Assembly (NCBI RefSeq): GCF_037892605.1
Contig: NZ_JBBKTU010000001.1
Coordinates: 3,968,001-4,032,000, forward strand
DNA: 64,000 nucleotides
Direction: 5' to 3'
Source of the DNA: Lacibacter sp. H407
Lineage (GTDB): Bacteria > Bacteroidota > Bacteroidia > Chitinophagales > Chitinophagaceae
Shown here piece by piece: positions 30,585 to 36,059 of this stretch. The notes beneath the pieces are model-generated. The model did not search any database, was not told where the DNA came from, and saw nothing but the letters and a program-made list of their open reading frames with translations. Position numbers and translations under genes: made by a program. The first letter of the stretch is position 1, and the number at the start of each line of letters is the position of its first letter.

Positions 30585-31907
30585 TTATACAGCTTTCAAT
30601 AAATAATCTCTCAATGCTTCAAATGAAACATCCATTACAGTTGAATTTTTCGGCAGATCAATAATTTCTTTTACTGCATCCGGCAACGGGATGGTTTGAT
30701 TCAACACAGGTTCCACCACATCATAAAATTTAACGGGATGAGCTGTTTCCAAGAAGATGCCTTTTAATGTCGAGTCACCAGCATTGTTTAAATATCGTTC
30801 CAATGCCAAGTAACCAACAGCACCGTGCGGATCGAGTGTATAACCTAATTCATCATACACACGTTTCATCGTTTGTTTTGTCTCCTCATCGGTAATACTT
30901 ACGCTGCTGAATTTTTCTTTCAACTGCGGAAACTGTTGATGAAACAATTCAAGAATGCGAACAAAGTTGCTGGGATTACCAACATCCATCGCATTGCTGA
31001 TGGTTGCAACGGCAGGCTTGGGTTGGTATTGCTGTGAATGCATAAAGTTGGGAACAATATCATTTGCATTACATGCTGCAAGAAAATGTTTCACCGGCAA
31101 ACCACTCATGTGTGCTAAAATACCGGCACAGATATTTCCGAAGTTGCCGCTGGGCACTGCAATAACAGGAGGCTGGCCACCATCCCCTAAAGGGGAACTG
31201 ATCCATTGCTTGTACGCAAAGAAATAATAGAACTGTTGCGGCAACCATCTTGCAACATTGATTGAATTAGCTGATGTAAGAAATAACTGCTTGTTGAGTT
31301 CTGCATCGGTAAACGCCTGCTTCACCAATTGCTGACAATCATCAAAAGTTCCGTTTACCTCCAATGCATGAATATTGTTGCCCAGTGTAGTTAATTGTTT
31401 TTCCTGCACACTGCTTACTTTACCGCTTGGGTAAAGAATCACCACCTCCACTCCTTCTACATTGTAAAAACCATTGGCAACTGCGCCACCGGTATCGCCG
31501 CTTGTAGCAACAAGTACCGTTACTTTTTTATCAGCACCTTTTACAAACTGACCAAGACAACGACTCATGAACCGTGCACCAACATCTTTGAAGGCGAGTG
31601 TTGGTCCATGAAATAATTCAAGTGATGCAATGTTTTCACTCACTTGTACTAATGGGATTGGAAAGTTGACTGTCTCTGACACAATGCGATACAATTCATC
31701 TTCTGCAATTTCATTACCGACATACGGTTCGATCACACGAAATGCAATTTCTTCGTTGCTGATGTTTTCGATATTGCGGATAAGATCTTTATCAACCTGG
31801 GGAATGCTCTCCGGAAAATACAATCCTTTGTCAGGGGCTTGTCCCAGAATGGTTGCTTCCTTGAATGAAACGATGGGTGATTGTTTGTTTAAACTATAGT
31901 AATTCAA
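30585..31907 (-). CDS. thrC: Threonine synthase
   Basis: A PLP enzyme converting O-phosphohomoserine to threonine, last step of the pathway. Its 440 residues have ELFHGPTLAFKDVG with Lys107 as the PLP lysine, TSGDTGGAV as the cofactor phosphate loop and VPSGNFGN in the core. Residues 237-247 (SSPLGDGGQPP), just before VPSGNFGN, are encoded by a palindromic repeat (CCCCTAAAGGGG) inserted in frame. The enzyme is last in the thrA-thrB-thrC operon, 117 bases after thrB. Confidence 0.96.
   Translation of the reverse strand: MNYYSLNKQSPIVSFKEATILGQAPDKGLYFPESIPQVDKDLIRNIENISNEEIAFRVIEPYVGNEIAEDELYRIVSETVNFPIPLVQVSENIASLELFHGPTLAFKDVGARFMSRCLGQFVKGADKKVTVLVATSGDTGGAVANGFYNVEGVEVVILYPSGKVSSVQEKQLTTLGNNIHALEVNGTFDDCQQLVKQAFTDAELNKQLFLTSANSINVARWLPQQFYYFFAYKQWISSPLGDGGQPPVIAVPSGNFGNICAGILAHMSGLPVKHFLAACNANDIVPNFMHSQQYQPKPAVATISNAMDVGNPSNFVRILELFHQQFPQLKEKFSSVSITDEETKQTMKRVYDELGYTLDPHGAVGYLALERYLNNAGDSTLKGIFLETAHPVKFYDVVEPVLNQTIPLPDAVKEIIDLPKNSTVMDVSFEALRDYLLKAV
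31183..31196. repeat. Palindromic repeat inside the thrC reading frame
   Basis: TCCCC-TAAA-GGGGA is a perfect 5-bp-arm dyad within the stretch 31167-31199 coding for SSPLGDGGQPP. The same C/G-rich core recurs between genes at 54.97 kb and 28.88 kb in degenerate form. Confidence 0.6.
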
Positions 31908-32024: not shown

Positions 32025-32948
32025 CTACGCTTTTATTTCTTTCACGCCTTCCTGTGCAATGGACGTTACATACGTTTTATATTCTATTCCCAAACGATGA
32101 AATACTTCCTGCATGATCGTTTCAACATTTTTTGCGGTTGTTTCTTCTTTACTCAACATAAAGATCGAGGGGCCACTACCAGAAATACCGCCACCTAATG
32201 CACCGGCCTCTTTACTTCTGGTTTTAATTTCATCAAAGCCGGGAATTAAAATACTGCGTACCGGTTCAATGATCACATCTTCCAGGCTTCTGCCGATCAG
32301 ATCTGTATCGCCTTTTTCAAAACCTGCAACAAGACCTGCAATGTTGCCCCATTGTTTGATCGCATCTTTCAACAATACTTCTTTGCGAAGGATCTGTCGT
32401 GCATCACTCGTCTTAACTTCAATTTGCGGATGTACCACCGTTACAAATAACGGAGGCGACTTGAGTTGTATAATATCCAATGGATGAATGGAACGGATCA
32501 ACGCAACACCACCGGTAATACAGGGCGTAATATTATCCGCATGCTTTACACCACTGGCAAGCTTTTCGCCATGCATGGCAAACTGCACCAACTCGTCGGT
32601 TGAAAAAATATTCTTCAGCAATTTGTTGGCAGCAACAGCAGCACCGGCAGCACTCGCCGCACTCGAACCTAACCCACTGCCGGGTTTGATCTGCTTTTCA
32701 ATTTCTACTTCAAAGCCAAATGCATTTCCCATTTTTTCCATGATCTCCAGCAGTACAACACCAGCAACATTCTTTGTTGCTTCTGTTGGAAGATCGTATG
32801 CATCTTTATTGGTAATGTACACCTTTGGTTCATCGATCAACTTCAGCTTCATGATATCAAATGGTTCCTGCAAGGCCATACCAAGAATGTCAAATCCACA
32901 AACGAGGTTAGCGACAGTAGCGGGACATTTTACAACAACTTCTTTCAT
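32025..32948 (-). CDS. thrB: Homoserine kinase
   Basis: A GHMP-family kinase phosphorylating homoserine, the fourth step from aspartate to threonine. Its 307 residues start MKEVVVKCPATVANLVCGFD, carry the GHMP ATP loop PGSGLGSSAASAAGA, and end with the GGGISGSGPSIFML motif near residue 250. The start is four bases past the thrA stop, indicating tight coupling in the operon. Confidence 0.96.
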   Translation of the reverse strand: MKEVVVKCPATVANLVCGFDILGMALQEPFDIMKLKLIDEPKVYITNKDAYDLPTEATKNVAGVVLLEIMEKMGNAFGFEVEIEKQIKPGSGLGSSAASAAGAAVAANKLLKNIFSTDELVQFAMHGEKLASGVKHADNITPCITGGVALIRSIHPLDIIQLKSPPLFVTVVHPQIEVKTSDARQILRKEVLLKDAIKQWGNIAGLVAGFEKGDTDLIGRSLEDVIIEPVRSILIPGFDEIKTRSKEAGALGGGISGSGPSIFMLSKEETTAKNVETIMQEVFHRLGIEYKTYVTSIAQEGVKEIKA

Positions 32949-32952
32949 ACAA

Positions 32953-35394
32953 TTATTTTTGAGCAGCTCTTAAAATATCTGCAAATACACCACTGGCAGT
33001 TACTTCTGCACCGGCACCGGCACCTTTTACCACCATCGGTTGCTCTTTGTAACGATCGGTGTAGAAGAGCACCACATTATCTTTTCCGTACAAATGATAG
33101 AGATCATGTTGCGGCGGTATATGCTGCAATCCAACGCTTGCTTTTCCTTCATTAAAGCTCGCAACAAATTTCAGTTTACAATCTTCTGCATGTGCTTTTT
33201 CGAAGATGGCTTTGAAATGTGCTTCTTCTTTTTTCATGGCCTCATAAAAATCATCCACACTTCCCTTCATACAACTATCGGGCAAAAATCCATTACATGC
33301 AATTTCTTCCATTTCCATTTGCACACCTGCTTCACGGGCAAGAATGAGAATTTTCCGCATCACATCAGTACCACTTAAATCCAAACGTGGATCTGGTTCT
33401 GTGTACCCTTCATCCTGTGCCTGCTTCACCACATCTGCAAATGGTTTTGTACCATCATAATGATTGAATACAAAATTGAGTGTTCCGCTTAACACCGCTT
33501 CCATACGATGTACCCGATCGCCGCTACGCATCAGATCATTTAACGAACCAATGATGGGCAATCCCGCTCCTACATTTGTTTCAAATAAGAAAGGCGCATT
33601 GTATTCTGAAGATAAATGTTTGAGTTTTTTATAATTGCTGAGCTTTGATGATGCAGCTACTTTGTTGCAGGCAACTACAGCGATACTTTTTTCAAGTAAT
33701 GATGCATACACATCTGCAATAGCAGCGTTGGCCGTTACATCCACAAAAACGGAATTACGCAAATTCTTTTGTGTGATGGCTTGCACAAACTGCGACAGAT
33801 CGGCGGCTTCACCTTGTTGTAAAAGATCTTCCCAGTTATCGAGGTTCACAGCATTATCGTTGACAAGCATTTTGCGACTGTTGCTCAACCCTGCGATATT
33901 GATCTGCAAACGCAGATGCTGCTCAAGAAACACAGCCTGCTGTTTGATTTGTGCCAGCAATTTTTTACCAACGTTTCCTGTACCAACCACATATAAATGG
34001 ATCTGCTTTTTGGTTGTTTCAAAAAACTCTTCGTGCAAAACGTTTACTGCTTTGCGCACATCAGCCGTTGCAACAACAGCAGAAATATTCCGTTCAGTTG
34101 AACCTTGTGCAATTGCACGGATGTTGACACCATTGCGACCTAGTGCCGCAAACATTCGTCCACTGATACCGGTGTGATGACGCATTTGATCACCTACCAA
34201 TGCAACGATCGAGAGATCTTTTTCAATCTGCAGCGGATCTACTTTCTGCGTTGCTATTTCGTATTCAAATGTTTTATCAACGGCTTCTTTTGCTCTTGCA
34301 GCAGATGCTACATCCACACCCACACAAATTGAATGTTCACTTGAACCTTGTGTAATCAGGATCACGTTGATCTGTGCATTGGCCAACGCAGCAAACAAAC
34401 GGCTACTGAAACCGGGAATACCGATCATACCACTTCCTTCCAAACTCAGCAATGCCAATGAATTGATACTGGAAATGCCCGTAATAATATTTGTCGAGTC
34501 AGGTTTGTTTTCAATCACCGTTCCATGATCAGCAGCAGCAAATGTATTCTTGATCCATACCGGAATATTCTTCACCAACACCGGTTGTATGGTTGGCGGA
34601 TAGATCACCTTGGCACCAAAGTGCGAAAGCTCCATTGCTTCCTGGTATGAAATGGATGGAATGATCCGTGCATTGGGAACCCAACGTGGATCGGCCGTCA
34701 TCATTCCACTTACATCGGTCCATATTTCCAATGCTTTTGCATGTACGGCAGCAGCAAGAATAGATGCCGTATAATCAGAACCACCACGGCCCAATGTTGT
34801 AGTGATATTGTTTGCATCGCTGGCAATAAAACCGGGAACAACGATCAGTTTACCGGATGTCTTTTTTATATAATCGCTCACTTGTTGATTAGTAACTGTA
34901 AAATCAACAGCCGCATTGCTGTAATTGGAATTGGTGCGGATGAGTTCACGTGCATCTTTCCATTCAGCCGGAGTTCCGTTGCTGTTAAAAGCTGCATGAA
35001 TAATAGCTGAGGACAACAACTCACCATAACTCACCAGTTTATCTTTGGTACGTAACGATGATTCGCCCAACAGAAAAATACCATTGCAGATATCTTCCAT
35101 TTCGTTACAGAATTTCTTTACCATACTCAACACTGCACTCTGTTGCTGTACAGGAATCAATGCTTTTACTGTATCAAGATGCCTTGTCTCCAGTTGCTTT
35201 AAAATGTCTTTGTACGTTTCGTCTGTAGCAGACGCTTTTGTGCCGCAGCTCAACAACAGATCGGTGGTGCCGCTCATGGCACTTACCACAACCATTACGG
35301 GGCTCTCGTTCAATTTATTCTTTACTATATCAGCAACCTGTTTGATTGCTTCTGCACTTCCCATTGAAGTGCCACCAAATTTTAAAACCAGCAT
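32953..35394 (-). CDS. thrA: Bifunctional aspartokinase / homoserine dehydrogenase
   Basis: A fusion catalysing the first and third steps of threonine synthesis. Of 813 residues, the N-terminal aspartokinase (LKFGGTSMGS, residues 3-12; GRGGSDYTASI) is followed by ACT regulatory domains that normally bind threonine (region VALVGDQMRHHTGISGRMF), then a homoserine dehydrogenase (VVGTGNVGKKLLAQI NADP loop; catalytic region GYTEPDPRLDLSGTDV). Domain order matches E. coli ThrA. First structural gene of thrABC, 86 bases after the leader peptide. Confidence 0.97.
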   Translation of the reverse strand: MLVLKFGGTSMGSAEAIKQVADIVKNKLNESPVMVVVSAMSGTTDLLLSCGTKASATDETYKDILKQLETRHLDTVKALIPVQQQSAVLSMVKKFCNEMEDICNGIFLLGESSLRTKDKLVSYGELLSSAIIHAAFNSNGTPAEWKDARELIRTNSNYSNAAVDFTVTNQQVSDYIKKTSGKLIVVPGFIASDANNITTTLGRGGSDYTASILAAAVHAKALEIWTDVSGMMTADPRWVPNARIIPSISYQEAMELSHFGAKVIYPPTIQPVLVKNIPVWIKNTFAAADHGTVIENKPDSTNIITGISSINSLALLSLEGSGMIGIPGFSSRLFAALANAQINVILITQGSSEHSICVGVDVASAARAKEAVDKTFEYEIATQKVDPLQIEKDLSIVALVGDQMRHHTGISGRMFAALGRNGVNIRAIAQGSTERNISAVVATADVRKAVNVLHEEFFETTKKQIHLYVVGTGNVGKKLLAQIKQQAVFLEQHLRLQINIAGLSNSRKMLVNDNAVNLDNWEDLLQQGEAADLSQFVQAITQKNLRNSVFVDVTANAAIADVYASLLEKSIAVVACNKVAASSKLSNYKKLKHLSSEYNAPFLFETNVGAGLPIIGSLNDLMRSGDRVHRMEAVLSGTLNFVFNHYDGTKPFADVVKQAQDEGYTEPDPRLDLSGTDVMRKILILAREAGVQMEMEEIACNGFLPDSCMKGSVDDFYEAMKKEEAHFKAIFEKAHAEDCKLKFVASFNEGKASVGLQHIPPQHDLYHLYGKDNVVLFYTDRYKEQPMVVKGAGAGAEVTASGVFADILRAAQK

Positions 35395-35470
35395 ATAAGA
35401 TTAACGTTAAATGATCAGAAGATTTTTCCTGTTCTGCAGCAATGATTGCCCGTGGGTTGATATGGTAATG

Positions 35471-35493
35471 TACAATCCGCTTAGCGGATCGTA
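35471..35493 (-). promoter_or_regulatory. thr leader RNA hairpin
   Basis: On the minus strand TACGATCCGC-TAA-GCGGATTGTA forms a 10-bp stem (one G-U pair) whose left arm is the last Thr-Ile-Arg codons of thrL and whose loop is the thrL stop codon. Part of its right arm (GATTG, 35474-35478) could instead pair with CAATC at 35444-35448, giving a mutually exclusive fold. No T-run terminator is obvious before thrA, so the exact mechanism is not clear. Confidence 0.6.
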
Positions 35494-35567
35494 GTTGTAA
35501 TAATAGTTGTGCCGTTAGCAGAGGATGCCAACGTGTTGAATGTAATATGTGCAACTATCTTATTCAT
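35481..35567 (-). CDS. thrL: thr operon leader peptide
   Basis: A 28-codon frame ATG...TAA encodes MNKIVAHITFNTLASSANGT followed by TIITTTIR. Its second half, residues 20-27, reads T-T-I-I-T-T-T-I: five Thr and three Ile in eight codons, just before the stop and 86 bases upstream of thrA. Clustered regulatory codons in a short frame ahead of the matching biosynthetic operon is the hallmark of transcription attenuation, as in E. coli thrL, whose sequence differs. The stop codon lies in the loop of a hairpin. A -7-like element ends only six bases before the ATG, so the mRNA may be leaderless. Scarce charged tRNA-Thr or tRNA-Ile would stall the ribosome on this run. Confidence 0.88.
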   Translation of the reverse strand: MNKIVAHITFNTLASSANGTTIITTTIR

Positions 35568-35572
35568 GTGGC

Positions 35573-35603
35573 CACAAGATAAACACGATGAATCATGCAA
35601 CAA
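35573..35603 (-). promoter_or_regulatory. thrLABC promoter
   Basis: On the minus strand TTG, 19 bases, then TATCTTGTG, one base from TAnnTTTG. It lies directly upstream of thrL and is the only promoter-like site before the operon. Confidence 0.5.
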
Positions 35604-35630
35604 GCGTTAGTCTTAAAATATTTTAGAAAA

Positions 35631-36059
35631 TTAGTCTATTTGAAAAGTATAGTGATAAGGATTGAATAAACGCTTGGTCACTTTTACATGATTCTTAATT
35701 TGCTCTGTTGACAAATTTTGAGAACTTCCATCAGTTAAAATGAAAATCCCATTAAATGAGTTTGGCGTTAAGAATTGGCCAACCAATGTAGTTGTATTGG
35801 CTGGTATTACAACAGACAAAGTACTATCATCAATAATTTGGTAAGTTAGAGTATCCGATAGCTCTAAAGCTGTTTGACCAGATGCAAAAGGCAATATATC
35901 TACAGAAGACGTCAGTTCTTTTACAGCCCCATTAAACTTCAAAAAGAGTTTGACCGGTTCCGCTTTCATATTTACAATATAAAACTCAGATAGAATTGTA
36001 CATCTCATCAAGCCAAAACAAATGACTAAAAAGATAAAGACTCTCCTAATAAAATTCAT
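35631..36059 (-). CDS. Small secreted protein of unknown family
   Basis: A 142-residue protein starting MNFIRRVFIFLVICFGLM, a membrane-targeting signal, with Cys20 in a non-canonical lipobox (LMRC). The rest is a beta-rich domain with no recognised motif. It is AT-rich and isolated, with no operon partner. Start at 36059 rather than the upstream frame start because it gives a clean signal sequence. Confidence 0.6.
   Translation of the reverse strand: MNFIRRVFIFLVICFGLMRCTILSEFYIVNMKAEPVKLFLKFNGAVKELTSSVDILPFASGQTALELSDTLTYQIIDDSTLSVVIPANTTTLVGQFLTPNSFNGIFILTDGSSQNLSTEQIKNHVKVTKRLFNPYHYTFQID

Follow-up and report, generated by a model that had tools for sequence, protein, structure and literature searches.

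A Thr/Ile leader peptide with a conserved stop-codon hairpin upstream of thrABC in Lacibacter: a candidate attenuator without a recognisable intrinsic terminator

The window, i.e. the whole analysed stretch of 64,000 nucleotides from Lacibacter sp. H407, carries on its minus strand thrA, a thrB-like gene and thrC, Table 1. Directly before them lies a frame of 28 codons, MNKIVAHITFNTLASSANGTTIITTTIR, with its stop 86 nt upstream of thrA. Such a Thr/Ile frame in front of thrABC is what the original prediction had claimed from the letters alone, and both the frame and the genes downstream are present. The operon is thus immediately preceded by a short frame in which codons for its end products form runs, as is expected of an attenuator. 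The range initially singled out, 35471-35603, reaches from the TTG of the -33 element to the 3' end of the hairpin P1; the CATATYA element and the hairpins P2 and P0 are features that had been missed. The Thr run is rich in C and poor in G (fractions 0.29 and 0.11). The RNA from 35570 to 35395 has a folding energy of -37.3 kcal/mol (z -3.44), and one of 200 shuffles folds as well. In the scripted comparisons below, shuffles preserve base composition only.

Table 1. Features of the thrABC locus in the window. Positions are those of the window.
Feature	Positions	Strand	Remarks
Imperfect palindrome CTAACGCTTGTTG over the -33 region	35598..35610	minus	possible operator; motif excess
TTG of the putative -33 promoter element	35601..35603	minus	19 bases upstream of TATCTTGT
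-7-like element TATCTTGT	35574..35581	minus	ends six bases before the ATG; imperfect compared with the strict form
Leader peptide frame MNKIVAHITFNTLASSANGTTIITTTIR with stop	35567..35481	minus	ATG at 35567, TAA at 35483-35481
P0 hairpin CGTTGGCA/TCCTC/TGCTAACG	35513..35533	minus	within the leader frame, upstream of the Thr/Ile run
Thr/Ile run ACA ACT ATT ATT ACA ACT ACG ATC, then CGC (Arg)	35484..35510	minus	read from the sequence
P1 hairpin TACGATCCGC (35493-35484) / loop TAA / GCGGATTGTA (35480-35471)	35471..35493	minus	10 bp
CATATCA, instance of the conserved CATATYA	35458..35464	minus	fixed distance from P1
P2 hairpin GGCAA/TCA/TTGCT	35438..35450	minus	conservation and covariation
thrA, fused aspartokinase and homoserine dehydrogenase	32953..35394	minus	domain content
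thrB-like GHMP kinase	32025..32948	minus	domain content
thrC, threonine synthase	30585..31907	minus	start codon as mechanically listed

To judge conservation we fetched relatives by their ThrA, keeping the best 80 of 584 matches, which are mostly named Chitinophagaceae, Bacteroidetes or related. With the window this gives 81 loci; L009 was left out, having only 107 nt upstream, so that 80 could be examined. In 78 of them a frame with 6-11 Thr or Ile among its last 12 codons precedes thrA, and in these same 78 a hairpin following or overlapping the frame, together with a CATAT, is also found before thrA. Two of the 80, L018 and L066, are thrA genes of close relatives with no such leader. Over 73 of the 78 loci, Thr or Ile accounts for 497 of 730 codons in frame, while reading in either shifted frame leaves 24 and 21 of 730; this contrast is inflated because the frames had been chosen for their Thr/Ile content. 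In the nearest relatives (L005-L007) many leader residues outside the Thr/Ile run are not those of the window. The frame is thereby conserved among relatives; this and the covariation of the hairpin, described next, are among the checks that had been proposed with the original prediction.

The hairpin P1 is just as had been described, 10 bp with the stop codon as its loop. It has a stem of 5-10 bp in all 78 loci, with a mean score of 18.1 compared with 9.5-10.3 in three control stretches. After removal of near-duplicates, 69 of 69 left arms prefer the right arm of their own locus over those of other species (p 2.6e-13), a test that is free of any model fit. RNAalifold run on a raw MAFFT alignment gave only 3 pairs, the P1 loops differing in length, and this alignment was replaced by one from a covariance model, which is biased towards its own model. 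In the resulting alignment A4 (71 distinct rows) 89.7% of the cells are paired, and of the 11 pairs 6 have changes in both partners; two-sided changes occupy 47 cells compared with 15.4 in shuffles, and none of 500 shuffles reaches 47. The inner helix of P1 is paired in 98.3% of the cells, the lower part in 77% and P2 in 85%, and sliding the partner by 1-3 columns lowers the pairing to 30-51%. In L061 and L079 P1 is kept although the stop codon sits past the loop. As in attenuators, a leader hairpin spans the last codons and the stop, where it would be covered by a ribosome reading the frame.

The model R1 was built from 16 loci, selected because their P1 loop has 5 nt with TAA at its end, GGGC is present and the P2 loop is short. 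The covariance model recovers 77 of the 81 sources at E <= 0.02, missing L009, L018, L066 and L031. The model's next four matches in the window genome (E 0.31-8.1) have no thrA match, and a second CATAT-GGGC-GCTG site in that genome (L085) falls within a coding frame and was put down to chance.

Downstream of P1, CATAT follows at a nearly fixed distance in 78 of 78 loci. Counted from the inner base of the right arm, the distance is 14 nt in 42 loci, 15 in 16, 16 in 18, and 13 and 17 in one each. The gap from the end of the stem is looser, 5-11 nt with 7 as the commonest value (29/78), so the loop-proximal base is the fixed point; a 7-nt gap places the second A and the last T of CATAT 11-12 nt beyond the stem. 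CATAT was anchored in a range from 6 nt upstream to about 38 nt downstream of the leader stop; the search patterns demanded ATA, with a preference for C or T ahead of it and TYA behind it. The base counts of the anchored motif (T+4 in 74/78, A+6 in 75/78) are thereby biased and are no independent evidence. Such evidence comes from the spacing relative to P1 and from the G's at positions +13 (78/78) and +14 (77/78), the G's having been used for anchoring in four loci only. In L011, L033, L050 and L077 two CATAT-like sites lie 8 nt from each other and the downstream one was taken, which regularises their distance, and in L031 the anchor was placed by hand.

P2 begins at these G's, about 13 nt after CATATYA, with the form GGC(N)...(N')GCY and an inner pair that varies between T-A, A-T and C-G. 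GCTG follows GGGC in 47 of 72 loci, where 3.4 are expected, and the hairpin at the place of P2 is above the shuffled mean in 65 of the 78 family loci. From P2 to the ATG of thrA the distance ranges over 37-131 nt, and this variation favours a step that acts before thrA translation.

The third hairpin, P0, was compared with a control in which synonymous codons are redrawn and the peptide is kept. It beats this control in 52 of 64 loci (p 3.7e-10), and 10 of 1000 control sequences do as well as the window. The position of P0 varies among loci, and fixed regions give a weak result in the matched/mismatched test (36/69, p 0.034, uncorrected for 36 tests). Judged from the sequences compared, the leader frame, P1, CATATYA, P2 and their rigid spacing are under selection, and P0 more weakly so.

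How this arrangement would be read out is less clear. The original prediction had noted the absence of an obvious U-run terminator, and a terminator scan of the window indeed finds none between leader and thrA. As the same scan detects strong U-run terminators in the his, ilvE and trpE leaders of the window genome, we regard the thr leader of the window as one without a recognisable terminator. In the family, terminator-like sites occur in 14 of 78 loci compared with 7 of 156 shuffles, and eight of the 14 are P1 itself with broken U tracts. Neither P2 nor the hairpin downstream of it, P3, was retained as a terminator. By eye, most loci have no T tract after P2. The 45 nt after P2 are mildly more structured than shuffles (11.2 vs 9.4, p 2e-4, relatedness not removed), with few U tracts; 3.7 of the 10 bases after that hairpin are T, compared with 2.8 in shuffles.

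The alternative pairing proposed earlier, GATTG of the right arm of P1 with a downstream CAATC, was rejected. CAATC lies at 35448-35444 as claimed, but the pairing is not conserved among relatives: a downstream CAATC is found in one of 15 loci with the GGATTG type of arm, the window itself, and in 6 of 48 with the GGGTTG type. In the loci that extend over 45 nt beyond CATAT, the right arms of P1 show no pairing preference for the downstream stretch of their own locus over those of others (p 0.52). Nine leader regions give 36 pairs, of which P1 alone survives correction; no conserved antiterminator was found. Seven leader regions were also compared with the start region of thrA, and none pairs preferentially with its own over those of other species (p 0.58-1.0); these matched/mismatched and thrA-start tests used the 69 of 78 loci left after removal of near-duplicates. 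At CATAT the column frequencies do not follow the elemental pause consensus (G-10, Y-1 G+1). Rho is said to prefer YC pairs, of which the Thr run has few.

We then examined how far the element extends, reading the region upstream of thrA in 60 further Bacteroidota genomes that were hand-picked across families from 148 with a match. A strict finder, requiring the hairpin, a CATAT 11-19 nt away and a Thr/Ile-rich frame, recovers 72 of the 80 family loci. It matches 16 of the 60 genomes (15 of 59 outside the family of the window) and none of 1200 shuffles. The matches are in five families: f1, that of the window, with 1/1, f4 with 1/1, f5 with 7/11, f8 with 2/4 and f24 with 5/12. In the other families it matches 0 of 31, including 0 of 3 in f2, which belongs to the same order as the window; within the five element-bearing families it misses 14 of 29 loci. 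In the 16 matched loci the inner base of P1 is 13-16 nt from CATAT. This includes the two f8 genomes, in which the arms of P1 are swapped (ACGGG/CCCGT). P2 could not be made out in the loci of f5 and f8, and the single f4 locus has a weak one. Ten f24 loci have a hairpin of other sequence (TTGGC/GCCAA, TAGGA/TCCTA, GGCA/TGCC etc.) 11-14 nt after the C of CATAT, six of them with GG at +13.

A model scan of 395 genomes gave 15 matches at E <= 0.01: 10 of the 14 genomes of the family, two in f5 and three in f24. Of the four family genomes left unmatched, one (G033, L108) does carry the leader. Four of the five matches outside the family (L101, L102, L103, L105) are before thrA and the fifth, L104, is not; L104 and L106, with no thrA match, were set aside as chance.

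Other families show other arrangements. Two f3 loci (L145, L146) have a Thr/Ile-containing frame upstream of thrA together with classical terminators of -21.5 and -16.0 kcal/mol. The comparison suggests that one kind of sensor may be joined to different readouts across families. Upstream of thrA in L107 (f9), where the P1-CATAT finder is negative, there is a GC-rich hairpin of -19.7 kcal/mol with a T tract and a Thr-containing frame.

The leader had been predicted to be uncatalogued, and Rfam at the gathering threshold gives no match of any family, T-box included, for the window or eight relatives. The nearest known system is the thrL attenuator of E. coli, which we take to be the Rfam family Thr_leader (RF00506). 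It has in common with the window a Thr/Ile-rich leader peptide before thrABC and a hairpin at the leader end. The window differs in having no U-run terminator, no antiterminator that we could find and no match to Thr_leader, for which 35390-35640 is unmatched up to E 5. The original prediction of the same Thr/Ile logic without a match to the E. coli RNA is thereby supported. To our knowledge, CATATYA and P2 have no counterpart in E. coli thrL.

Within the window genome the his, ilvE and trpE leaders likewise encode peptides with runs of His, of Ile/Val/Leu and of Trp; they differ from the thr leader in their strong U-run terminators. In the hisG locus (L167) the stop of the His leader, MILNAHTHHHHTCPNR, is 94 nt before the start of the gene and the terminator has -13.1 kcal/mol. 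Upstream of ilvE (L168, start 309) an Ile/Val/Leu leader ends with TLIIVVVIIIPAINGGASCM, terminator -18.5 kcal/mol, and upstream of trpE (L170, start 1456) a Trp leader ends with NNQWWWHTTLRGL, terminator -13.3 kcal/mol. By eye, the ilvE and trpE leaders contain sequence able to pair with the left arm of the terminator.

Ribosome-gated Rho termination is known from tnaC and mgtL. Control of this type, without an intrinsic terminator, would fit the thr leader, for which the proposed signal is tRNA charging instead. In hairpin-stabilised pauses an RNA duplex lies 11-12 nt before the paused 3' end, according to PMC12288461. In the thr leader a hairpin would lie about 11-12 nt before the candidate 3' end at the commonest gap; the leader differs from such pauses in being off the pause consensus, with a candidate site that is conserved as CATATYA.

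Of the literature found, the sections covered report that leader peptides had earlier been shown only in Proteobacteria and Actinobacteria, to which Firmicutes were added (PMC2965389), treat leader genes in general (PMC4833913), mention possible leader peptides in B. thetaiotaomicron (PMC7366714) and give hints that amino-acid operons of F. psychrophilum are preceded by attenuating leader peptides (PMC9723704). The last case is from the same phylum and concerns amino-acid operons; the words threonine and thrA are absent from its main text. The thr element is undescribed in the sections covered of the openly available literature found on leader peptides and attenuation. Leader-peptide attenuation is a textbook switch, and for Bacteroidota these sections offer general remarks only.

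The sensing half of an attenuator is very probably what the frame and P1 represent. The polymerase-level readout that we attach to it, a pause near CATAT with perhaps Rho acting there, is much more tentative. Taken together, a ribosome attenuator that senses Thr and Ile and acts on the polymerase without an intrinsic terminator is the reading we prefer, with a confidence that stops a little short of even. When charged tRNA-Thr or tRNA-Ile is scarce, the leader ribosome would stall in the Thr/Ile run, cover it and hold P0 and P1 open, so that the polymerase would be unheld and enter thrA. With ample Thr and Ile the ribosome would run through to the stop, which sits in the loop of P1, and depart. 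P1 could then form behind the RNA polymerase, which would pause around CATAT, some 11-12 nt beyond P1. Transcription would end at the pause or soon after, perhaps because Rho acts on the Thr run, which is rich in C and poor in G. A hairpin-stabilised pause is proposed because the position of CATAT 11-12 nt past P1, at the commonest gap, matches the reported pause spacing. A wider claim can be considered, with rather more doubt: that this is a class of attenuators in several families, without terminator or antiterminator, in which a ribosome-gated P1 at a CATATYA pause, with P2 and a factor such as Rho or NusG, alone sets entry into thrABC.

A classical transcription attenuator, in which the ribosome would control a weak or odd terminator (P2 or P3) as in E. 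coli thrL, is unlikely in our judgement. The f3 leaders with their strong U-run terminators speak for it, as do the excess of structure and T after P2 and the terminator-like sites in 14 loci, but eight of these sites are P1 with broken U tracts, no conserved antiterminator pairing was found, and the window is blank in a scan that readily finds the his, ilvE and trpE terminators. The rigid spacing from P1 through CATATYA to P2, with near-invariant bases between covarying hairpins, exceeds what a ribosome switch would need and could point to one folded RNA that is bound by a protein (e.g. threonyl-tRNA synthetase or an elongation factor) and opened or closed by the ribosome. We hold this to be distinctly unlikely: a frame of Thr/Ile codons whose stop lies in the loop of P1 indicates the ribosome as the sensor, and there is neither an Rfam family match nor a known protein partner.

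Translational attenuation, where folding of the leader would hide or expose the start of thrA, would suit the short gap of 86 nt and the missing intrinsic terminator in the window. The absence, in seven leader regions, of any preference for the own thrA start and the spread of 37-131 nt between P2 and the ATG make it improbable. P1 is also an inverted repeat in the DNA, and another palindrome lies over the -33 region in 22 of 78 loci; P1 might thus be a site for a transcription factor that the Thr/Ile frame overlaps by chance. Compensating changes, GU pairs and the swapped arms in f8 are unexpected for a DNA-binding site, and the frame is conserved together with P1, which leaves this explanation very improbable indeed. 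The preferred ribosome attenuator with a polymerase-level readout makes the thr leader a test case of how a leader ribosome may control RNA polymerase without an intrinsic terminator. The element occurs in five families by the strict finder, has no match in Rfam and lacks a terminator, unlike three other leaders of the same cell.

The palindrome over the -33 region, TAACN3-5GTTR, is found in the window and 21 of its 77 relatives, compared with 1.1 of the 78 loci in shuffles, and may possibly provide a second, repressor-based control. A regulon built on it was not retained, the sole other site in the window genome overlapping listed frames. The promoter was read against the -33/-7 consensus of Bacteroidota. 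Of the 78 loci, 38 have a TAnnTTnG (17% in shuffles), and in 25 of the 78 a TTG precedes it at 17-22 nt (1.6 in shuffles). Of 73 loci, 37 have the strict TAnnTTnG followed within 40 nt by a start codon in frame, at 4-40 nt overall and at 8-20 nt in 31 of them. In the window and L005-L007 the strict element is unmatched and a -7-like element is 6-7 nt from the start; in the window TATCTTGT ends six bases before the ATG, exactly where the original prediction had put the -7 element. A leaderless transcript is thus possible for these four loci, judging by the spacing, and not in general. In the His leader of L167, TTATTTTTG is only 4 nt before the ATG.
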